From assembly GCF_004078655.1 (NCBI RefSeq), contig NZ_RZNC01000007.1, positions 1 to 64,000 of the forward strand: a stretch of DNA of 64,000 nt, given 5' to 3'. Positions within the stretch are counted from its first letter, which is position 1. Every line of letters starts with the position of its first letter. Positions 2,544 through 58,937 of this stretch are shown piece after piece. The notes under the pieces are model-generated. The model was not told the origin of the DNA and made no database searches. It saw only the letters and a list, made by a program, of their open reading frames with translations. The position numbers were made by a program, and so were the translations under genes. The stretch is from Labedella populi (GTDB lineage: Bacteria > Actinomycetota > Actinomycetes > Actinomycetales > Microbacteriaceae).

Positions 2544-3947
2544 TCAGAAGTTGATCATATGACCGGTGAGCCCGTGGAAGCCCTCCTGGAGCGCCTCGCT
2601 GAGCGTCGGGTGCGTGTGCACGTTACGCGCGAGCTCGGTCGCCGTGAGGTCCCACTTCTGCGCGAGGGTCAGCTCGGGCAGGAGCTCGGACACGTCCGGG
2701 CCGATCATGTGAGCACCCAGGAGTTCGCCGTACTCGGCGTCGGCGACGAGCTTGACGAAGCCTGTGGGCTCGCCGAGGCCGTGCGCCTTGCCGTTCGCCA
2801 TGAACGGGAACGACGTGACCTTGACGTCGTGCCCCTCGTCGCGCGCCTGCTGCTCGGTGAGGCCGAAGCTCGCGACCTGCGGCTGGCAGAACGTCGCACG
2901 CGGCATCATCCGGTAGTCGCCGAGCTCCTGGGTCTCCGCGTCGGCAATGGTCTCCGCCGCGACGACGCCCTGCGCCTCCGCGACGTGCGCGAGCTGCAGC
3001 TTCGCCGTGACGTCGCCGATCGCGTAGATGTGCGGCACGTTCGTCCGCATCCGACCGTCGATGGCGATGGCGCCGCGCTCGGTGAGCTTCACGCCCGTCT
3101 TGTCGAGCCCGTAGCCCTCCACGCGGGGAGCGAAGCCGACCGACATGAGGACCTTGTCTGCGGTGAGCGTGCCCGTGGAGCCGTCCTTGGCCGTGTAGGT
3201 GACCGTGACCTGCGAGCCCTCGTCCGTGACCTTCTCGACCTTGGTCGAGGTCATGATCGGGATGCCGTAGCCCTTGTACTGCTTCGTGATCTCCTTGGAG
3301 ACGTCGACGTCCTCGTTCGGCAGGGCGCGGTCGAGGAACTCGACGATCGTGACCTCGACACCGTAGTTGCGCATGACGTAGGCAAACTCCATGCCGATCG
3401 CGCCGGCGCCGACGATGACGATCGAGGACGGCAGCTCACGCTCGAGGATCTGCGACTCGTAGGTCACGACGTTGTCGCTCAGCTCGACACCCGGCAGCAG
3501 TCGCACGACGGATCCCGTCGCGATGATGACGTTGTCGAACGAGATCGACGCCGTGTCGCCGTTCGAGAGGGCGACCGAGAGCGAGTGGTCGTCGGTGAAC
3601 GTTCCGCGCCCGTCGAACTCGGTGATCTTGTTCTTCCGCATGAGGAAGTGGACGCCCTTGACCCGACCGTCGGCGACGGTGCGGCTGCGGTCGAACGCGA
3701 CGCCGTAGTCGAACGAGACATCACCGCTCATGCCGAAGGTCTTGGCCTGGTGGGTGAAGATGTGGGCGAGCTCCGCGTTGCGCAGGAGAGCCTTCGACGG
3801 GATGCACCCGACGTTGAGGCAGACACCGCCCCAGTACTTCTCCTCGACGATCGCCACGGACTTCCCGAGCTGGGCCGCGCGAATCGCGGCGACGTAGCCG
3901 CCGGGTCCCGCTCCGAGGACGACGACGTCGAAATGCTGATCGGTCAT
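2544..3947 (-). CDS. lpdA: Dihydrolipoyl dehydrogenase (E3)
   Basis: FAD flavoenzyme that reoxidises dihydrolipoamide with NAD+ in pyruvate and 2-oxoglutarate dehydrogenase complexes and the glycine cleavage system. The 467 residues match the usual length. Visible motifs are the FAD-binding [10 protein letters not shown] (12-21), the redox-active disulfide CLNVGC (Cys43, Cys48), the NAD-binding [10 protein letters not shown] near 180, and the C-terminal active-site HPTLSE with His446 and Glu451. GGGAGG lies 7 bases before the ATG. A TAGAGT hexamer at 3982-3987 could be the -10 of its own promoter, giving a leader of about 30 bases. E1 and E2 subunits are not in this window. Confidence 0.95.
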
Positions 3948-10824: not shown

Positions 10825-12021
10825 ATGGCGTCCTTCCACCGCCGCTCCGTCGAGGAGCACGTCGCCCGCATCGCGGAGCTGCTCGCCCCCGCACTCGAGC
10901 CCCGCGAGGAGCTCGTGAAGCTCGACGACGCCCTCGGTCGCGTCACGGCGAGTAGCGTCGCGTCCCCCGTGGACCTGCCGCTCTTCCGCAACTCCCAGAT
11001 GGACGGGTTCGCCGTCGTCGCGGCCGACGTAGCCGACGTCCCCGTGACACTGCCCGTCGTCGGCGAGGTCTCGGCCCGGGCCGCCGAGCCGGACGCGCTG
11101 CATCCCGGGACGGTCGTGCGGATCATGACGGGCGCCGTCGTGCCCGACGGTGCCGACGCCGTCGTGCCCGTCGAGGACGCCCGGGTCGTCGGCACCGACT
11201 CCATCTCGATCGACCGTGCCCGGGCCCGCGGGGACTACGTGCGTGAGCGCGGCAGCGACGTCCGTGTCGGCGATGAACTGCTGCCGGAGGGCGTCAGCCT
11301 GGCGTCCCGCCACCTCGCGGTCCTCGCCGCGGCCGGTATCGAGACGGTCTCCGTGCGCGCCGGCACCCGCGTCGCCGTCATCACGACGGGGGCGGAACTC
11401 GTCGCCCCCGGTGCCGACCCTCGCCCCGGGCAGGTGTTCGACTCCAACGGGACGGCGCTCGTGGCCGCGGTGCGCGCCGCGGGAGCCGAGGTCGTCGCGC
11501 GGCACCGTGTCGCCGACGATCACGACGAATTCCGCCGAGCCCTCGACGCCGCGACGGTCGCCGCCGATCTCGTCGTGACGTCCGGTGGCATCTCGATGGG
11601 CGATTACGAGGTCGTCCGCGAGACGCTCGAGCCCCTCGGCGCCGACGTCGGTTCCGTCGCGATGCAGCCCGGCGGTCCACAGGCTGTCGCGACGGTCGAC
11701 GGCACCCCGGTCGTCTGCTTCCCCGGGAACCCCGTGAGCACGCAAGTGTCGTTCGAGGTGTTCGTCGCCCCGCTGCTCCGTCGGGCGGCGGGACGACCGG
11801 AGCGGGTGGTCGCCCGGCGGCCGCTCGCGGCGGATCTGACCTCGGTCCCGGGCAAGCGGCAGTTCCTCAGGGGACGGATCGACGGCGACCACGTGTCGCT
11901 CGTCTCCGGCCCCGGCTCCCACCTCGTGGCGGCTCTCGCGGCCGCGGACGTCCTCGTCATCGTTCCGGAGGACGTCACGGCGCTCCGCGCGGGCGACCTC
12001 GTCGCGACCTGGGCGCTGTGA
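10825..12021 (+). CDS. moeA: Molybdopterin molybdenumtransferase
   Basis: Inserts molybdenum from molybdate into adenylyl-molybdopterin to give Mo-molybdopterin. The 398 residues cover the family in order: an N-terminal domain with the SQMDGFAV segment (~57-64), the IMTGAVVPDGADAVV region (~99-113), the MogA-like domain with TTGAEL and the SGGISMGDYE loop (~253-262), then FPGNPVS (~294-300), and a C-terminal beta domain. It follows moeB by 6 bases and precedes the moaCB fusion by 39 bases, within the plus-strand operon. Confidence 0.95.
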   Translation: MASFHRRSVEEHVARIAELLAPALEPREELVKLDDALGRVTASSVASPVDLPLFRNSQMDGFAVVAADVADVPVTLPVVGEVSARAAEPDALHPGTVVRIMTGAVVPDGADAVVPVEDARVVGTDSISIDRARARGDYVRERGSDVRVGDELLPEGVSLASRHLAVLAAAGIETVSVRAGTRVAVITTGAELVAPGADPRPGQVFDSNGTALVAAVRAAGAEVVARHRVADDHDEFRRALDAATVAADLVVTSGGISMGDYEVVRETLEPLGADVGSVAMQPGGPQAVATVDGTPVVCFPGNPVSTQVSFEVFVAPLLRRAAGRPERVVARRPLAADLTSVPGKRQFLRGRIDGDHVSLVSGPGSHLVAALAAADVLVIVPEDVTALRAGDLVATWAL

Positions 12022-12060
12022 GGCGGGCTGACGCACAATGACGATAAACGACGTGACAGC

Positions 12061-13035
12061 ATGAACGACATGACCGACGCCCCTCCCTCCGCGCTCACCC
12101 ACCTCGACTCCGACGGACGCGCCCGCATGGTCGACGTCGGCGGCAAGGACGTCACCGACCGGACGGCGACCGCCTCTGCGCGCTTCCTCACGCGCCCCGA
12201 CGTCGTCGCGCTCGTGCGGGCCGACGACCTGCCGAAGGCCGACGTGCTCGCGACGGCCCGCATCGCCGGCATCCAGGGCGCCAAACGGACGAGCGATCTC
12301 ATCCCCCTGTGCCACCCCCTCGATCTCTCCTCGGTGTCCGTGGACTTCGATTTCGACGAGTCGTCGATCGTCGTCTCGGCCACCGCGAAGACCCGGGGGC
12401 GGACGGGCGTCGAGATGGAGGCGCTCACGGCCGTCGCGATCGCGGGGCTCACGCTCCACGACATGGTCAAGGCCGTCGACCCCGAGGCGATCCTCGACGA
12501 CCTCAAGCTCGTCGAGAAGACCGGCGGCAAGCGCGGTCACTGGACACGGAACGCCGTCCGCGCCGGGACCGCTGCCGTCCTCGTCGCGTCGACCGCGGGA
12601 GCGGCGGGCGAGCGCGAGGACACGACGGGGCCCCTGATCGCGGCGTGGCTCTCCGACCAGGGCTACGCGGTGGACAGCGTCCGGATCGTTGCGGACGCCG
12701 ACGTCGCTTCGGCGCTGGACGACCTCGTGGCGAGCGCCCCCGCCGTGATCGTCACGACGGGGGGCACGGGCATGTCGCCCACCGACCGCACGCCCGAGGC
12801 GACCCGTCGACTCCTCGACCGTGAACTCCCGGGCGTCGCGGAGGCGATCCGCGCCGCGGGTGCGGCGAAGACCCCGACGGCCGCGCTCAGTCGCGGCCTC
12901 GCGGGGACGTCGGGCGGGACGGTCATCGTGAACCTGCCCGGTTCCCGCGGCGGCGTGGCCGACGGACTCGGCGTCCTCGACGGGCTGCTCGACCACCTCG
13001 TCGCCCAGATCGCCGGAGGGGGCGCGCATGAGTGA
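12061..13035 (+). CDS. moaCB: Bifunctional MoaC/MoaB-MogA molybdenum cofactor protein
   Basis: Fusion of two cofactor enzymes in 324 residues. Residues 1-~160 are MoaC, cyclic pyranopterin monophosphate synthase, with MVDVGGKDVT (~22-31), the LCHPL active-site segment (~81-85) and VEMEALTAVA. Residues ~175-324 are a MoaB/MogA-type domain that binds and adenylates molybdopterin, with TTGGTGMSPTDRTPEA (~238-253) and a Ser-Gly-Gly loop followed by NLPGSRGG. The fusion is known in actinobacteria and places MogA function in this cluster although no separate mogA exists. It overlaps moaE by 8 bases. An in-frame ATG 9 bases downstream (12070) is an alternative start. Confidence 0.95.
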   Translation: MNDMTDAPPSALTHLDSDGRARMVDVGGKDVTDRTATASARFLTRPDVVALVRADDLPKADVLATARIAGIQGAKRTSDLIPLCHPLDLSSVSVDFDFDESSIVVSATAKTRGRTGVEMEALTAVAIAGLTLHDMVKAVDPEAILDDLKLVEKTGGKRGHWTRNAVRAGTAAVLVASTAGAAGEREDTTGPLIAAWLSDQGYAVDSVRIVADADVASALDDLVASAPAVIVTTGGTGMSPTDRTPEATRRLLDRELPGVAEAIRAAGAAKTPTAALSRGLAGTSGGTVIVNLPGSRGGVADGLGVLDGLLDHLVAQIAGGGAHE

Positions 13036-13727: not shown

Positions 13728-14787
13728 CGATCGCCCCCATGCTCCGGACGGGCCGGACGAAGTCGGCCGACGCCATCCCGTGTCCCGCTTGCTTGCCCCA
13801 CATGGCGGCGCGCCAGCGGTCCGCGATCTCGGCGTCGTCCGCTCCTCCGCGCAGCAGCCCGCGGAGGTCGGTCTCGTCGTCGCCGAAGAGGCACGAGCGG
13901 ACGGTGCCCTCCGCCGTCAACCGCGTGCGGTCGCACGTCTCGCAGAACGCACGCGTCACCGAGGCGATGATGCCGACGGTCGCGGGGCCCCCGTCGACGA
14001 GCCACTCCTCGGCGGGCGCCGATGGGTCCTCGCGGTGCGGGTCGGTGAGGGTGAACCGCGAGCCGAGCACCGCGAGCAGCTCGGCGGCGTCGACCATGTT
14101 GTCGCGCGCCCACGCCTCGTCGGCGTCGAGCGGCATCTGCTCGATGAAGCGCAGCCTCACTCGGTTCTCGAGCGCCCACGCGAGCAGATCGGTCGCGCCG
14201 GCGAGCGTGTCGCGCATGAGGACCGCATTGATCTTGAGCGGCGTGAGTCCCGCGCGCTTGGCCGCCTCGATGCCCGCGAACACGGCCGGGAGCCGGTCCC
14301 GGCGCGTGAGCCGGGCGAAGTGGTCGCGGTCGACGGTGTCGAGGGAGATGTTGACCCGCGTGAGACCCGCTGCCATCAACTCGCCGATGCGCTTGTCGAG
14401 ACCGATCCCGTTCGTCGTGAGGGAGATCGAGGCGCCGAGCGCGACGGCCGAACTCTTGGCGAGGATCTCGGCGAGGTCGGCGCGCATGAGCGGCTCACCC
14501 CCCGTGAACCTCACATCGTGTACGCCGAGGTCGCGCGCGGCGATCCCGACGAGGCGCGCGATCTCGTCGGGCGTGAGGAGGTCGTTCCGGGCGATCGGCG
14601 GAAGGCCCTCCTCGGGCATGCAATAGGTGCAGCGGAGCGAGCACTTCTCGGTGATCGAGACCCGGAGGTCGCGCGCGACACGACCGAAGCGGTCGACGAG
14701 ACCGTCGGTCTCGGGGCGTCCGGTGGTGTCGGGACGCACGTCGGGTGCACGCCGGATGCCGGGGAGTCCGAGCGCGATACTCGTCAT
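13720..14787 (-). CDS. moaA: GTP 3',8-cyclase (radical SAM)
   Basis: First step of molybdopterin synthesis, radical-SAM cyclisation of GTP. 355 residues. The N-terminal radical-SAM cluster ligands are Cys49, Cys53 and Cys56 (CSLRCTYC), the GGEP motif follows near 96, and the C-terminal second cluster CETC plus a third Cys sits at about 280-297. The protein ends with the conserved Gly-Gly. The ATG has no Shine-Dalgarno; TAGGGT lies 6 bases upstream, so the moaA-moaD mRNA is probably leaderless. It is divergent from the membrane-anchored molybdoenzyme gene across 60 bases. Confidence 0.96.
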
Positions 14788-14793
14788 GACTTC

Positions 14794-14799
14794 ACCCTA
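14794..14799 (-). promoter_or_regulatory. -10 hexamer TAGGGT of moaA-moaD, leaderless
   Basis: TAGGGT read on the minus strand is followed by 6 bases and then the moaA ATG. No ribosome binding site is present. A -35 match is not apparent. Confidence 0.55.
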
Positions 14800-14847
14800 G
14801 TTCCGATGCGGTCGGCCCGGGGCAGCGACCCAGCCTCGAGGACTACC

Positions 14848-16488
14848 ATGACCGCCATGTCGACTCGCAGTCCGGAGCGCCCCAGCCCACCCGCGGCGAC
14901 GCGCGCCTCGTCGAGGAACCCGACCCCCCGCCCGGTTGTCCTCGCCGGCGCCGTCGGGCTGCTGTCAGCCCTCGTGACCCTCGCAATCGCGGAGCTCGTC
15001 GCCCTCATGGTGGATCCGGCCTCGAGCCCCCTGCTCGTGGTGGGCTCGCTCGTGATCGATCTCGTGCCCTCATGGGTCAAAGACCTCGTGATCGCGCTCT
15101 TCGGAACCAATGACAAGATCGTCCTCCTCCTCGTTCTCGCCGTCCTCGTTGCGGCTCTCGCCGTCGTGGCCGGCCTCCTCGAGTGGCGCCGGTCCCCTTG
15201 GGGTACCGTCCTGCTCGCGGTCGTCGGGGCCGTGGCCGTCGTGGCCGCGACGACCCGGTCGGGGGCGACCGGGATGTGGGCGAGCCCGACGATCGTCGGC
15301 GTCGGCGCCGGCGTCCTCGTCCTCCGCGTCGGTTCGGAGCGACTGCGCGCGTGGATCGGCGACGGGGACGCCGATGTGCTCGGGGCGCACCCGGACCCGT
15401 CCCTCGCCGACACAGCGGTGAGCCGCCGCCGATTCCTCGTCTTCACCGGCGCGACCGCCGTGGGCGCGGTGCTCGTCGGCGTCGGGGCACGCGTCGCGAA
15501 CGCCGCCTCGGCGGCCGCCGGCGCCGCCCGCCGCACTTTGCGCCTCCCGTCGGCGGTCTCGCCTGCCGCGCCGATCCCCGCGGCAGCGGATCTCGGGATC
15601 CCCGGGCTCTCCCCTGTGGTGACTCCGAACACCGACTTCTACCGCATCGACACCGCGCTGCAGGTCCCGAGCATCGACCCGTCCGAATGGAGCCTCCGCG
15701 TCTTCGGCGAGGTCGAGGAGGAGTTCGAGCTCACCTTCGACGAACTCCTCGAACTGCCCATGCAGGAGAGCGTCGTCACGCTCGCGTGCGTCTCGAACGA
15801 GGTGGGCGGCGATCTGATCGGCAACGCCGTCTGGCTCGGCTACCCGCTCCGCGAGTTGCTCGCCCGTGCCCGCCCGCGGGAAGGCGCCGACATGGTGCTC
15901 TCCCGCAGCATCGACGGCTTCACGGCGGGCACTCCCCTCTCGGTGTTGCAGGAGGAGGACCGCGACAGCCTCATCGCCGTGGGGATGAACGGCGAGCCGC
16001 TGCCCCTCGAGCACGGCTTCCCCGCTCGGCTCGTCGTCCCCGGGCTCTACGGCTACGTGTCGGCGACGAAGTGGGTCACATCGCTCGAGATCACTCGCTT
16101 CTCCGACGCCAGCGCCTACTGGACCGACCGCGGCTGGTCGGCCCAGGGACCCGTGAAGACGCAGTCGCGCATCGATGTGCCGACGAACCGCGCCCGCGTC
16201 CCCGCCGGCCGGGTCGCCGTCGCCGGGGTCGCCTGGGCGCAGCACACGGGTATCGACCGCGTGGAGGTCCGCATCGACGACCAGGCGTGGGCTCCCGCTC
16301 GACTCGCGACGCCGATCTCCGCGGACACCTGGGTCCAGTGGGTCTTCGAGTGGGACGCGCCCGCCGGCGACCACCGCCTCCAGGTGCGGGCGACGGACTC
16401 GGACAGCACGACGCAAGGTGAGCGGTCCGTCCCGGTCGTCCCCGATGGCGCGGAGGGCTGGCACACGATCGAGGTCACGGTCGCCTGA
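14848..16488 (+). CDS. Membrane-anchored sulfite-oxidase-family molybdopterin oxidoreductase
   Basis: A 546-residue enzyme with an N-terminal membrane domain (hydrophobic segments near 29-52, 60-80, 88-112, 117-135 and 146-160), an internal twin-arginine-like stretch SRRRFLVF (~192-199) followed by another helix, and then the catalytic part. Residues ~245-420 are the oxidoreductase molybdopterin-binding domain with the molybdenum-ligand Cys314 in LACVSNEVGG; ~430-546 is an Ig-like Mo-co dimerisation domain. The catalytic part is predicted outside the membrane. Substrate cannot be read from sequence: sulfite, or a sulfoxide as in MsrP/YedY, are candidates. The start has GAGGA 7 bases upstream; a second ATG lies 9 bases downstream. 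It sits directly beside the cofactor genes that serve it. Confidence 0.88.
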   Translation: MTAMSTRSPERPSPPAATRASSRNPTPRPVVLAGAVGLLSALVTLAIAELVALMVDPASSPLLVVGSLVIDLVPSWVKDLVIALFGTNDKIVLLLVLAVLVAALAVVAGLLEWRRSPWGTVLLAVVGAVAVVAATTRSGATGMWASPTIVGVGAGVLVLRVGSERLRAWIGDGDADVLGAHPDPSLADTAVSRRRFLVFTGATAVGAVLVGVGARVANAASAAAGAARRTLRLPSAVSPAAPIPAAADLGIPGLSPVVTPNTDFYRIDTALQVPSIDPSEWSLRVFGEVEEEFELTFDELLELPMQESVVTLACVSNEVGGDLIGNAVWLGYPLRELLARARPREGADMVLSRSIDGFTAGTPLSVLQEEDRDSLIAVGMNGEPLPLEHGFPARLVVPGLYGYVSATKWVTSLEITRFSDASAYWTDRGWSAQGPVKTQSRIDVPTNRARVPAGRVAVAGVAWAQHTGIDRVEVRIDDQAWAPARLATPISADTWVQWVFEWDAPAGDHRLQVRATDSDSTTQGERSVPVVPDGAEGWHTIEVTVA

Positions 16489-16579
16489 CCCCCGAAGCCG
16501 CTCGCCCCGATGCTGGTCGCGGACGCCTCCCGCTCAGTACGATGAGCGCACGAGCGTCGCCGACGAGTGGAGGATCGAC

Positions 16580-17173
16580 ATGGCCGTGTTCAGTCGTGGA
16601 TTCGGAGGGCGGGCTCGCGAGAGCGCACCCGACCTGCCGCCCGGTCAGTTCCTGACCGAGGACTTCCCCGTCCTCTCGGCCGGTCCGACGCCGGAGATAT
16701 ACACCGCCGAGTGGTCGTTCTCGATCCGCACTGAGACGGGCGCGCAGCACACGTGGGACTGGGAGCAGTTCCGAGCGCTGCCGTCCGAGCTCGTCTCGAC
16801 CGACATCCACTGCGTGACGCGCTGGTCGAAGCTCGGCACGTCGTGGCGCGGCGTCTCCCTCGACACCCTCTTCGAGGAGGTCGAGTCGAGCTACGACTAC
16901 GTCATGGCCCACTCCTACGGCGGCTACACGACGAACCTCCCCCTCGAGGACCTGCTCGACGGGAAGGCGTGGATCGCGTACGAGTTCGACGGCGAAGACC
17001 TCGACCCGGAGCACGGCGGGCCCGCCCGTCTCCTCGTCCCGCACCTGTACTTCTGGAAGAGCGCGAAGTGGGTGCGCGGTCTCGTCATGATGAAGGACGA
17101 CGAACCGGGATTCTGGGAGCAGAACGGCTACCACACGTACGGCGACCCCTGGCAGGAGCAGCGGTACTGGTGA
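16580..17173 (+). CDS. Small sulfite-oxidase-like molybdopterin oxidoreductase
   Basis: 197 residues forming a single oxidoreductase molybdopterin-binding domain, with the molybdenum-ligand Cys78 in DIHCVTRWSKLG and the typical C-terminal LYFWKSAKWVRG (~164-175). There is no signal peptide, membrane segment or dimerisation domain, so it is predicted cytoplasmic. GGAGG lies 8 bases before the ATG. The stop overlaps a 26-codon mini-ORF, which itself overlaps the flavin reductase gene, suggesting that this enzyme, the reductase and the DUF6510 protein are made together. The reductase is the natural electron partner. Substrate unknown. Confidence 0.88.
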   Translation: MAVFSRGFGGRARESAPDLPPGQFLTEDFPVLSAGPTPEIYTAEWSFSIRTETGAQHTWDWEQFRALPSELVSTDIHCVTRWSKLGTSWRGVSLDTLFEEVESSYDYVMAHSYGGYTTNLPLEDLLDGKAWIAYEFDGEDLDPEHGGPARLLVPHLYFWKSAKWVRGLVMMKDDEPGFWEQNGYHTYGDPWQEQRYW

Positions 17174-17250
17174 GCACGCTTCACGACACCGAGCTCCGCG
17201 ACACCGGGCCCCACGACACCGCGCTTCACGACGCGGTGACCGAGCGGTGA
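17170..17250 (+). CDS. Possible 26-aa repeat peptide between two coupled genes
   Basis: A GTG-started frame of 26 codons that fits exactly between the small molybdoenzyme and the flavin reductase, with a four-base GTGA overlap at both ends. It encodes four tandem five-residue units (HDTEL, RDTGP, HDTAL, HDAVT), i.e. a 15-base repeat at 17182-17241. It has no similarity I recognise. It may be a genuine coupled peptide, or an expanded repeat that merely keeps ribosomes moving from one gene to the next. Confidence 0.3.
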   Translation: MSTLHDTELRDTGPHDTALHDAVTER

Positions 17251-17960
17251 CGGACTGGAAGGTCGGGACGGTCACGGACACGCGAACGGAGACTCCGACG
17301 GGACGCAGCATCACCATCTCCGTCGACGGCTGGCCCGGCAACCTCGCCGGCCAGCACCTCGACCTGCGCCTCACAGCCCCCGACGGCTACCAGGCGGTCC
17401 GCTCGTATTCCATCGCGAGTGTTGGAGACGGGAGCACCGTGGAGCTCGCCGTCGATCGGTTCCCCACGGGCGAGGTCTCTCCGTACCTCGTGGACGACGT
17501 GCTCCCCGGCGACCAGCTCGAGGTGAAGGGCCCGCTCGGCCGGTGGTTCGTGTGGACGCCGGAGGACACGCGGCCGATCCAGCTCGTGGCGGGCGGTTCG
17601 GGCATCGTCCCGCTCATCGCCATGGCCCGCGCCCACGCGATGTCCGGGAGCACCACGGCGTTCCGGCTGCTGTACTCGGTGCGCACGCCCGAGGATCGCT
17701 TCTTCGCCGACGAACTCGCGTCCCTCGAATCGGAGACCTTCCACGTCGATTACGTCTACACGCGATCGACCCCGGCCGACTGGCCGACTCCGCCCCGGCG
17801 CGTCACGCGCGACGTCATCGAGGCCCTGACGATCTCGGCCGCCGATGCACCCGGCGTGTTCGTGTGCGGCCCCACGGGGTTCGTCGAGGCCGTCGCCCGC
17901 GCCCTCGTCGAACTCGGCCACGATCCGCAGTCCGTCAAGACCGAACGGTTCGGAGGCTGA
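17247..17960 (+). CDS. FAD/NAD(P)-binding oxidoreductase, ferredoxin-reductase type
   Basis: 237-residue two-domain flavoprotein. The FAD-binding beta barrel carries RSYS (52-55) and the NAD(P) domain carries GGSG (116-119) and the C-terminal CGPTGFVE (~207-214). No iron-sulfur domain is attached, so it transfers electrons between NAD(P)H and a separate partner; the preceding molybdoenzyme is the obvious candidate. The start is GTG within a GTGA overlap; DUF6510 follows after 2 bases. The molybdoenzyme-reductase-DUF6510 order appears to be a recurrent actinobacterial arrangement. Confidence 0.88.
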   Translation: MTDWKVGTVTDTRTETPTGRSITISVDGWPGNLAGQHLDLRLTAPDGYQAVRSYSIASVGDGSTVELAVDRFPTGEVSPYLVDDVLPGDQLEVKGPLGRWFVWTPEDTRPIQLVAGGSGIVPLIAMARAHAMSGSTTAFRLLYSVRTPEDRFFADELASLESETFHVDYVYTRSTPADWPTPPRRVTRDVIEALTISAADAPGVFVCGPTGFVEAVARALVELGHDPQSVKTERFGG

Positions 17961-17962
17961 CC

Positions 17963-18244
17963 ATGACGAGTCACGTGGACGGCAACGCCCTCGCCGGATC
18001 GCTGTCGGAGATCTTCCGCACCGACATGACAACCGCCGTGTGCTGTTGCGGCGGCTGCGGCGACACGACGACCATCGCGACGGAGATGGTCTACGGGACG
18101 GACGCGCTCGCGCACGGCTCGATCGTGCGCTGCCGCTCGTGCGACGACGTCCTCATCACCCTCGTCGACACACCGGAACGCACGGTCGTGCGCTTCCCCG
18201 GCATCACGACACTCACCGTCGACCGCGAGACCCCGCCCGCCTGA
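17963..18244 (+). CDS. DUF6510 family zinc-ribbon protein
   Basis: 93 residues with two Cys pairs, Cys29/Cys32 and Cys57/Cys60, plus extra Cys27 and Cys28, which together look like a zinc ribbon or small metal site. The C-terminal half is beta-rich. No catalytic function is known. It follows the flavin reductase by 2 bases with GGAGG in front of the ATG, so it probably supports the molybdoenzyme/reductase pair, for example as a carrier or assembly factor; that is inference from position only. Confidence 0.8.
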   Translation: MTSHVDGNALAGSLSEIFRTDMTTAVCCCGGCGDTTTIATEMVYGTDALAHGSIVRCRSCDDVLITLVDTPERTVVRFPGITTLTVDRETPPA

Positions 18245-18313
18245 GCGCTCACTCCCCTCGCCTTTGGGCTGTCATATATCCGCGGTCGAACCGCCCTCGT
18301 GGCGCGTGCTCGC

Positions 18314-20728
18314 TCAGGCTCCGACGTAGGCGGCGAGATGCTCGCCCGTGAGGGTGGAGCGCGCGGCGACGAGGTCGGCGGGAGTGCCCTCGAAGACGAT
18401 CGACCCGCCGTCATGGCCGGCCCCCGGCCCCACGTCGATAATCCAGTCGGCATGCGCCATGACGGCCTGGTGGTGCTCGATGACGATGACGGAGGTGCCC
18501 GACTCAACGAGGCGATCGAGCAGGCCGAGGAGGTTCTCGACGTCGGCGAGGTGGAGGCCCGTCGTGGGCTCGTCGAGGATGTAGACGCGTCCCTTCTCGC
18601 CCATGTGCGTCGCGAGCTTGAGACGCTGACGCTCGCCGCCCGAGAGCGTCGTGAGGGGCTGCCCGAGGCTCACGTAGCCGAGCCCCACATCGGCAAGCCG
18701 ATCGAGGATCGCGTGCGCCGCCGGCGTGCGGGCCTCGCCGCTGCCGAAAAACGACTCCGCCTCGGCGACCGACATCGCGAGCACCTCGCTGATGTCCTTC
18801 CCGCCGAGCGTGTACTCGAGCACGGACGCCTGGAAGCGCTTGCCCTCGCACACCTCGCACGTCGACGCGACGCTCGCCAGGACGCCGAGGTCGGTGTAGA
18901 TGACGCCGTTGCCGTTGCAGTTGGGGCACGCACCCTCCGAGTTGGCGCTGAAGAGAGCAAGCTTGACGCCGTTGGCCTTCGCGAATGCCTTCCGGATGGG
19001 CTCGAGCAGACCCGTATACGTCGCGGGGTTGCTGCGCCGGGACCCCTTGATGGCGCCCTGGTCGATCGAGACAACGCCCTCGCGCCCCGCGATCGAGCCG
19101 TGCACGAGCGAACTCTTGCCGGAGCCCGCGACACCCGTCACGACCGTGAGGACGCCGAGAGGAACGTCGAGGTCGACGTTTCGCAGGTTGTTCGCCGACG
19201 CTCCCCGCACCTCGAGCACACCCGTCGGGGTCCGTACCGTCTCCTTGAGGGAGGCGCGGTCGTCGAGGTGCCGGCCCGTCAGCGTGTCGCTCGCGCGCAG
19301 CCCCTCGACGGTTCCCTCGAAGCAGATCTCGCCGCCGTGGACGCCCGCACCCGGGCCGAGATCGACGACGTGGTCGGCGATCGCGATCGCCTCGGGCTTG
19401 TGCTCCACGACGAGCACGGTGTTCCCCTTGTCACGCAGACGCAGGAGCAGTTCGTTCATGCGTTGGATGTCGTGCGGGTGCAGACCGATCGTGGGCTCGT
19501 CGAAGACGTACGTGACGTCCGTGAGCGAGGACCCGAGGTGACGGATCATCTTCGTGCGCTGCGCCTCGCCGCCGGAGAGCGTCCCGGCCGGCCGGTCGAG
19601 CGAGAGATAGCCGAGCCCGATCGAGACGAACGAGTCGAGCGTGTCGGACAGCGCCGCGAGGAGGGGGGCGACGGAGGGCCCGTCGAGCGCACGCACCCAG
19701 TCGGCGAGGTCGCTGATCTGCATCGCGCTCGCCTCGGCGATGTTGATGCCGCGGATGCGCGACGACCGTGCGCCCTCATTGAGCCGGGTCCCGCCGCACT
19801 CCGGGCACGTCGCGAACGTCACCGCACGGTCGACGAAGGCCCGGATGTGCGGCTGCATCGCCTCCCTGTCCTTCGAGAGCATCGACTTCTGCAGCTTCGG
19901 GACGAGGCCCTCGTAGGTCATATTGATGTCCGAGACGCGCACCTTCACGGGCTCCTTGTAGAGGAGGTCGTGGCGCTCCTTCTCGGTGAAGTCGCGGATG
20001 GGCTTGTCCGGGTCGAAGAAACCGGAACCCGTGTAGATCTTCACGCCCCAGCCGTCGGCGGTGTAGCCGGGAATCGTGATAGCGCCCTCGTTGAGCGACT
20101 TCGACTCGTCGTAGATCTGGGTGAGGTCGATGTCGTTGACCTTGCCCATGCCTTCGCAGCGCGGGCACATGCCGCCCGTGATGGAGAAGTCGCGGCGCTC
20201 CTTCGTCGTGACGCCGGCCTTCTCGAAGGTCACGGCGCCGGCGCCCGAGATCGAGGCGACGTTGAACGAGAACGCCTGCGGAGCGCCGATGTGCGGCTCC
20301 CCGAGCCGACTGAAGAGGATGCGGAGGAGGGCACCCGTGTCGGTCGCGGTGCCGACGGTCGAGCGGACGTTCGCTCCCATGCGCTCTTGGTCCACGAGGA
20401 TCGCCGTCGTCAGCCCTTCGAGCACGTCGACGTCGGGGCGCGACTGGCTCGGCATGAAGCCCTGCACGAACGAGCTGTACGTCTCGTTGATCATGCGCTG
20501 CGACTCGGCCGCGATCGTCGCGAACACGAGGGAGCTCTTCCCCGAGCCCGAGACGCCCGTGAACACCGTGAGCCGGCGCTTCGGCAGGTCGACGGAGACG
20601 TTCTTGAGGTTGTTCTCGCGCGCGCCGACGACCCGGATCAGGTCGTGACGATCGGCGGGGTGCCGGCCGTCGAAAGGGGCGGCAGGCTCGGCGTGCGTTG
20701 CGGAAGAGGTACCAGGCATCGTCGACAT
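18314..20728 (-). CDS. UvrA-like ABC ATPase without UvrB-binding domain
   Basis: 804-residue paralogue of excinuclease subunit UvrA (about 950 residues). Two ABC units are present with Walker A GVSGSGKSS (~56-64) and GVAGSGKSS (~530). The C-terminal zinc finger is intact (CPNC ... CEVC). In the first unit the sequence runs from the STVGT segment straight to FSFN and CPRCEGMG, so the UvrB-binding domain and first zinc module are missing. Such proteins (DrrC-like) are linked to drug resistance or DNA-intercalator release rather than UvrABC excision. Its start lies 6 bases after a TAGCAT hexamer with no Shine-Dalgarno. Confidence 0.88.
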   Translation of the reverse strand: MSTMPGTSSATHAEPAAPFDGRHPADRHDLIRVVGARENNLKNVSVDLPKRRLTVFTGVSGSGKSSLVFATIAAESQRMINETYSSFVQGFMPSQSRPDVDVLEGLTTAILVDQERMGANVRSTVGTATDTGALLRILFSRLGEPHIGAPQAFSFNVASISGAGAVTFEKAGVTTKERRDFSITGGMCPRCEGMGKVNDIDLTQIYDESKSLNEGAITIPGYTADGWGVKIYTGSGFFDPDKPIRDFTEKERHDLLYKEPVKVRVSDINMTYEGLVPKLQKSMLSKDREAMQPHIRAFVDRAVTFATCPECGGTRLNEGARSSRIRGINIAEASAMQISDLADWVRALDGPSVAPLLAALSDTLDSFVSIGLGYLSLDRPAGTLSGGEAQRTKMIRHLGSSLTDVTYVFDEPTIGLHPHDIQRMNELLLRLRDKGNTVLVVEHKPEAIAIADHVVDLGPGAGVHGGEICFEGTVEGLRASDTLTGRHLDDRASLKETVRTPTGVLEVRGASANNLRNVDLDVPLGVLTVVTGVAGSGKSSLVHGSIAGREGVVSIDQGAIKGSRRSNPATYTGLLEPIRKAFAKANGVKLALFSANSEGACPNCNGNGVIYTDLGVLASVASTCEVCEGKRFQASVLEYTLGGKDISEVLAMSVAEAESFFGSGEARTPAAHAILDRLADVGLGYVSLGQPLTTLSGGERQRLKLATHMGEKGRVYILDEPTTGLHLADVENLLGLLDRLVESGTSVIVIEHHQAVMAHADWIIDVGPGAGHDGGSIVFEGTPADLVAARSTLTGEHLAAYVGA

Positions 20729-58847: not shown

Positions 58848-58937
58848 GAGTCCGAGTCCGAGTCCGAGTCCGGGTCCGGGTCCGGGTCCGAGCCCAAGCC
58901 CGAGCCCGAGTCCGAGTCCGAGCCCGAGTCCGAGCCG
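58848..58937 (+). repeat. Degenerate hexanucleotide tandem repeat, 15 units
   Basis: Fifteen consecutive units of GAGTCC or one- to two-base variants (GGGTCC, GAGCCC, AAGCCC) fill the gap between the convergent phosphoribosyltransferase and ABC-F genes. The unit is a multiple of three, so if read it would code for Val-Arg, Glu-Ser or Ser-Pro type dipeptides; no gene uses it. Confidence 0.95.

Follow-up and report, generated by a model that had tools for sequence, protein, structure and literature searches.

Overlaps between the stop codon of one gene and the start codon of the next have mostly been studied as fixed features of two genes. That a short open reading frame (ORF) can bring ribosomes to a poorly starting gene is known from bicistronic designs and from the short ORF of the integron attI site, which are engineered or lie in leader position and have one overlap, unlike the double overlap that we describe here in Labedella. 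For gene pairs coupled by termination-reinitiation (TeRe), one study of six gene pairs reports that coupling is almost lost once the gap reaches about 20 nt, with one pair retaining 60% of its coupling at 14 nt; in two pairs, no more than the final 15 nt of the upstream gene were required for coupling (Huber et al., 2023; PMC10666635). According to a review, some studies find coupling over wider gaps (PMC12548453). PPE2 synthesis in Mycobacterium tuberculosis was shown to require a short ORF that overlaps the gene at AUGA and acts mainly through termination-reinitiation (PMC11260477).

The window, that is, the whole stretch of 64,000 nucleotides analysed here (positions 1 to 64,000 of the forward strand of Labedella populi contig NZ_RZNC01000007.1), contains a mini-ORF between the genes of a molybdopterin oxidoreductase (hereafter the molybdoenzyme) and a reductase (Table 1). 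As a preliminary description of this DNA had claimed, the mini-ORF has exact 4-base overlaps with its neighbours at both ends, is read in the third frame relative to both of them and consists of 26 codons and a stop. At the first overlap, the molybdoenzyme ends with TGA at 17171-17173 and the GTG of the mini-ORF begins at 17170; at the second, the mini-ORF ends with TGA at 17248-17250 and the reductase begins with GTG at 17247, the sole ATG, GTG or TTG in the open reductase frame up to a conserved Trp codon. The 76 bases given earlier for the distance between the two genes hold if the stop codon is counted, the spacer proper being 73 bases long (17174-17246), and the reported four 15-base repeats are present as four imperfect copies, measured as 3.7. 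Since the unit of 15 bases is a multiple of three, changes in copy number leave the frame intact. The score of this repeat ties for third highest among the 85 tandem-repeat rows of the window (TRF), the strongest being a hexamer array, GAGTCC, at 58848-58934 (14.5 copies, 90% matches, score 118). Just upstream of the pair lies another, larger molybdopterin oxidoreductase gene (13780-16488, 902 aa, PF00174 and a Big_7 domain), and stretches homologous to this region adjoin the pair in three other Labedella genomes.

Table 1. Features of the molybdoenzyme-reductase junction in the window.
Feature	Position	Strand	Basis
Shine-Dalgarno-like GGAGG of the molybdoenzyme gene	16569..16573	+	anti-SD duplex -9.3 kcal/mol
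Molybdopterin oxidoreductase, sulfite-oxidase-like, 197 aa, first gene of the pair	16580..17173	+	Pfam PF00174, E 7e-35
Shine-Dalgarno-like AGGAG in the last molybdoenzyme codons, 11 nt before the mini-ORF GTG	17154..17158	+	-6.6 kcal/mol
Proposed relay mini-ORF, GTG...TGA, 26 codons + stop	17170..17250	+	reading-frame inspection
GTGA overlap 1, molybdoenzyme stop / mini-ORF start	17170..17173	+	
Tandem repeat, 3.7 copies of a 15-base unit	17178..17232	+	TRF score 68, 80% matches
GTGA overlap 2, mini-ORF stop / reductase start	17247..17250	+	
FAD/NAD-binding reductase, 237 aa, second gene of the pair	17247..17960	+	Pfam PF00175, PF00970

Each step of this junction has the same 4-nt stop/start overlap as the TeRe pairs with a -4 nt NTGA overlap that are described in PMC10666635 and PMC12548453, and an overlap of the 4- or 1-nt kind that characterizes such pairs is found at both ends of the mini-ORF. 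A further likeness is that the downstream start, here that of the Labedella reductase, has no Shine-Dalgarno sequence (-3.0 kcal/mol at GTG 17247). Differently from these pairs, a mini-ORF without a conserved peptide lies here between two enzymes, and two overlaps stand in series (four at a related locus, L049). The MIRU elements of mycobacteria, as presented in PMC12548453, likewise combine a short ORF at a gene start, -4 nt coupling and repeats; the -4 overlap with the downstream start is shared by the Labedella mini-ORF, whereas MIRU are dispersed repeats and the Labedella spacer is lineage-variable, with no presence at many loci among the matches listed in four genomes. The uPPE2-PPE2 junction of M. 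tuberculosis also has a short out-of-frame ORF, an AUGA overlap and a downstream gene without a Shine-Dalgarno motif, and TeRe was demonstrated there by reporters and tags. The uPPE2 frame opens an operon behind a riboswitch, whereas the Labedella mini-ORF is intergenic and starts on the stop codon of the previous gene (PMC11260477). Among open-access titles and the openings of abstracts, we found no mini-ORF relay of this kind between two genes. The probable relay would be a new arrangement of a known coupling mechanism, not a new mechanism.

The gene pair is present in all four Labedella genomes examined, where the molybdoenzyme is 94-100% identical (96% in genome G003). A frame linked by GTGA at both ends spans the gap in each of them, with 26 codons in the window, 23 in G003, 15 in G001 and 10 in G002; the corresponding spacers measure 73, 64, 40 and 25 nt, all of them 1 mod 3. 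When the four junctions are aligned, the flanks are near-identical and the spacer is hardly alignable, and the four mini-ORF peptides are alike in their first two codons only. At the three other junctions no tandem repeat with a score of at least 30 is found. What is kept within the genus is thus the frame with both overlaps, conservation across species being a further mark of TeRe pairs; peptide, length and repeat are not kept. The comparison proposed in the preliminary description, of the same gap in related species, therefore came out differently for its two parts: the open frame is conserved in all four Labedella, and the repeat, confined to the window, shows no conservation of copy number within the genus. 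The arrangement that the same description regarded as speaking against it, the same gene order with no open frame in the gap, is absent from the four Labedella genomes; beyond the genus, 118 of 176 junctions have no spacer frame of their own, the first start there leading straight into the reductase. Two other candidates were set aside. For a dispersed repeat element, no other full copy of the repeat-bearing spacer occurs among the matches listed in the four Labedella genomes, the next-best of these being 38 nt at 84% elsewhere in G001. For an RNA structure, the folding z-scores of the four spacers are near zero or positive (-0.01 to +1.36), indicating no unusual stability, and no Rfam family matches at the gathering threshold in 16400-18400.

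The wider survey is based on a search of 299 genomes of the family, which yielded 190 loci (30 + 80 + 80) among the matches listed, weaker ones being left out. Both genes, located by tblastn, were in order at 189 of these (the exception is L088), and removal of 13 rows with identical junctions left 176 distinct junctions. The reductase was anchored on its conserved Trp codon in 167 of the 176 rows, including all 18 relay rows. An overlap was counted when ATG, GTG or TTG stood at -4, -1 or -7 to the molybdoenzyme stop; overlaps of -8 are outside the junction counts, although they were allowed in the shuffle null, and a variant that admits them links some further loci directly. A start codon overlapping the molybdoenzyme stop was found at 138 junctions and none at 38. 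From this start the reading runs directly into the reductase in 118 cases. The remaining 20 include 18 that are bridged by linked mini-ORFs, 17 of them by a single one of 4 to 26 residues (4-7 residues in 10 of the 17) and L049 by three, together with L091, which is unbridged, and L182, which failed the strict rule and has, by eye, a reductase-frame ATG at -8 of the mini-ORF stop. Note also that L049 comes from a metagenome-assembled genome labelled Mycobacterium, and that both its proteins cluster with loci of Microbacteriaceae.

In 8 of the 18 relay loci, the open reductase frame before the Trp codon offers no ATG, GTG or TTG other than the linked start. In six others the further possible starts lie within the molybdoenzyme gene, ahead of the first stop, and L029, L030, L049 and L161 have an alternative start near or after the linked one. 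Additional support for the linked start comes from five Frigoribacterium-like loci (L029, L031, L034, L060 and L132), because conservation of the reductase N-terminus reaches nearly to it. On a quick tree of the 176 rows built from both proteins, the relay label changes 12 times, at least 10 of these changes being forced by well-supported branches; they may be gains or losses, and 60 of the 173 inner branches are open. On this tree, the relay arrangement thus seems to have had about a dozen separate origins at this gene junction in related bacteria.

Reductase starts that are read directly have a mean anti-SD energy of -5.8 kcal/mol (n = 118), partly dictated by the molybdoenzyme codons in which their Shine-Dalgarno sequences lie. 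Those reached through a relay have a mean of -3.1 (n = 18; p = 1e-4 against the direct starts), similar to that of randomly chosen sites within the first gene (-3.15, n = 880). With a threshold of -4 or below, the displaced reductase start is without a Shine-Dalgarno sequence in 17 of the 18 relays, L153 (-6.9) being the exception. The first relay starts, with a mean of -4.3 (n = 18), do not differ significantly from the relay reductase starts (p 0.42). Because of these weak energies, most displaced reductase starts look poor at recruiting ribosomes themselves.

How easily the linked layout arises by chance was estimated by shuffling. A linked chain appeared in 7% (mononucleotide) or 12% (dinucleotide) of shuffles of the window gap, and in 24% or 37%, respectively, of those that left the reductase a start, so that one junction linked at both ends says little when taken alone. 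It is the comparison with relatives that places the linkage above chance. Across loci, the chance of a bridge in shuffles with a reductase start was 0.13-0.54, and the probability that at least 12 of 14 origins are bridged was 7e-7 (mononucleotide) or 5e-5 (dinucleotide), where the 14 origins are 12 relay rows, one per lineage, and the failures L091 and L182, for each of which the chance was set by assumption at 0.25 (mononucleotide) or 0.35 (dinucleotide).

A genomic background was obtained from 464 kb of the window's genome (400 kb of contig C2 and the window), in which a home-made caller predicted 403 genes and 289 co-directional pairs. Among 139 non-direct co-directional pairs separated by 12-250 nt, 13 have the linked layout, the studied junction included, where 8.5 (dinucleotide, p 0.009) or 5.9 (mononucleotide, p 5e-5) would be expected; -4 overlaps alone occur in 12 of 141 pairs against 6.6 (dinucleotide) or 5.1 (mononucleotide) expected. 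This excess over shuffles is modest, and the layout by itself is therefore cheap. For the comparison with the sister genome G003, 255 pairs were available, 188 of them with adjacent orthologues. Eleven relay pairs have G003 orthologues, of which five keep the relay, five do not and one is direct, and relays present in G003 only were found in four pairs. Among relay pairs, 3 of 9 length changes are multiples of three, compared with 21 of 73 among other pairs and 6 of 7 among direct ones. A relay rule for the whole genome in Labedella was accordingly rejected, as the excess is modest and the frame is generally not kept in G003. Given this background and the poor conservation in the controls, one linked mini-ORF proves little; by the sequence comparisons above, the studied junction is exceptional in its conservation and recurrence.

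We consider it probable that the mini-ORF acts as a ribosome relay, in which stepwise termination and reinitiation would keep the reductase coupled to the molybdoenzyme. Ribosomes that end the molybdoenzyme at TGA 17171-17173 would restart on the overlapping GTG at 17170, presumably aided by the AGGAG within the final molybdoenzyme codons, read the 26 codons, stop at 17248-17250 and restart on GTG 17247 to enter the reductase. In most relatives the first restart would open the reductase itself. An insertion, a deletion or a short tandem duplication may then have displaced the reductase from the frame of the first restart, and the lineages that survived would nearly always be those in which a linked mini-ORF bridged the displacement, in one case a chain of three. 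The peptide would be a by-product, the frame and the overlaps being what is preserved. The overlaps, the kept frame, the recurrence and the missing Shine-Dalgarno sequence are read directly from the DNA; from them we infer the restart of ribosomes at both overlaps, the dependence of the reductase on it and the evolutionary order. A reductase whose 73-nt spacer is split into two -4 steps fits the published loss of coupling over gaps. The coupling device that the preliminary description had put forward is thus well supported at the level of sequence, by the frame and overlaps kept in 4/4 Labedella and their recurrence in other genera.

The most serious competitor is chance: GTGA is common in a GC-rich genome, and the spacer might be unselected with the reductase starting on its own GTG. 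The shuffle probability at the single locus, the genomic background and the want of general frame conservation elsewhere all agree with such an origin, yet it would leave unexplained why mini-ORFs bridge 18 of the 20 junctions that are not direct, with the label changing 12 times on the tree, why the frame survives different lengths in all four Labedella and why 17 of 18 displaced starts have no Shine-Dalgarno sequence, and we regard it as unlikely. Far less probable still is a functional small protein, the second option of the preliminary description. An open frame with a start codon does exist in 4/4 Labedella genomes, but its product varies from 10 to 26 residues in the genus with no common sequence past the first two codons, shrinks to 4-7 residues at most single-mini-ORF loci elsewhere and has no Pfam match up to E 0.1, and the spacer hardly aligns between conserved flanks; this drift in length and sequence led us to reject a functional peptide.

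We give scarcely any credence to regulation of the reductase by a leader peptide or an RNA switch, which a short ORF directly 5′ of a gene and repeats able to fold would suit, but against which stand the unremarkable folding of the Labedella spacers, the negative Rfam result and the lack of conserved codons past the start. Equally improbable in our estimation is frameshifting through the spacer to give a molybdoenzyme-reductase or mini-ORF-reductase fusion. It has a parallel in the M. tuberculosis ppe2 leader, where a minor stop-suppression product was described beside AUGA reinitiation (PMC11260477); however, by eye no common slippery site was noticed in the Labedella spacers, and identical overlaps recur in unrelated spacer sequences.

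Some of the linked mini-ORFs still carry traces of their origin. In L037 the first junction is repeated after 17 nt, as a tandem duplication. L049 has three successive linked mini-ORFs after a molybdoenzyme stop located near 3600; here the stop/start pair is part of 32-nt tandem repeats, and the duplication is clear in two of the three steps. As both lengths are 2 mod 3, the duplications create a linked mini-ORF and leave the reductase open. Nine of the 20 mini-ORFs end in Trp, as do most molybdoenzymes of these loci, which suggests further junction duplications, although the duplication score is not significant for mini-ORFs beyond L037 and L049, Labedella included. The origin of the Labedella mini-ORF is no longer visible in its sequence, and the 15-base repeat of the window probably expanded later, in frame.

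For one gene pair, this junction forms a natural series, from direct reading through one mini-ORF of 4 to 26 codons to a chain of three. It opens two debated questions to direct testing, whether post-termination ribosomes can cross an untranslated spacer and whether serial reinitiations are efficient enough for selection, and it hints that some tiny intergenic frames serve ribosome delivery rather than peptide production. One may speculate further, with considerable doubt, that this is a recurrent repair: chains of linked mini-ORFs might restore coupling at stretched or out-of-frame junctions, some through duplications of 2 mod 3, so that unannotated frames of 4-30 codons between actinobacterial operon genes could be translated stepping stones and L049 a four-step relay.

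Other chains and linked frames were seen along the way. Genus searches covered five downstream genes of relays in the window's genome (G000), and the junctions were inspected for a pilT-like, a moaC-like and a sugar-permease-like gene; of the two remaining genes, one has only weak matches in other species and the relay of the other is absent from G003. Two chained mini-ORFs precede the moaC-like gene in the window (12018-12064), a chain that is absent, by eye, from the three other Labedella junctions. At a junction that we take to be pilB-pilT-like (G000:C2 about 42303; G003:C12), a GTGA-linked mini-ORF has 17 codons, against 28 in G003, and the relay is kept despite a 33-nt difference in length between the two genomes. 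At C2:115750 (L210), two chained mini-ORFs stand before a gene of about 550 aa and are kept in G003 with 3 extra bases.
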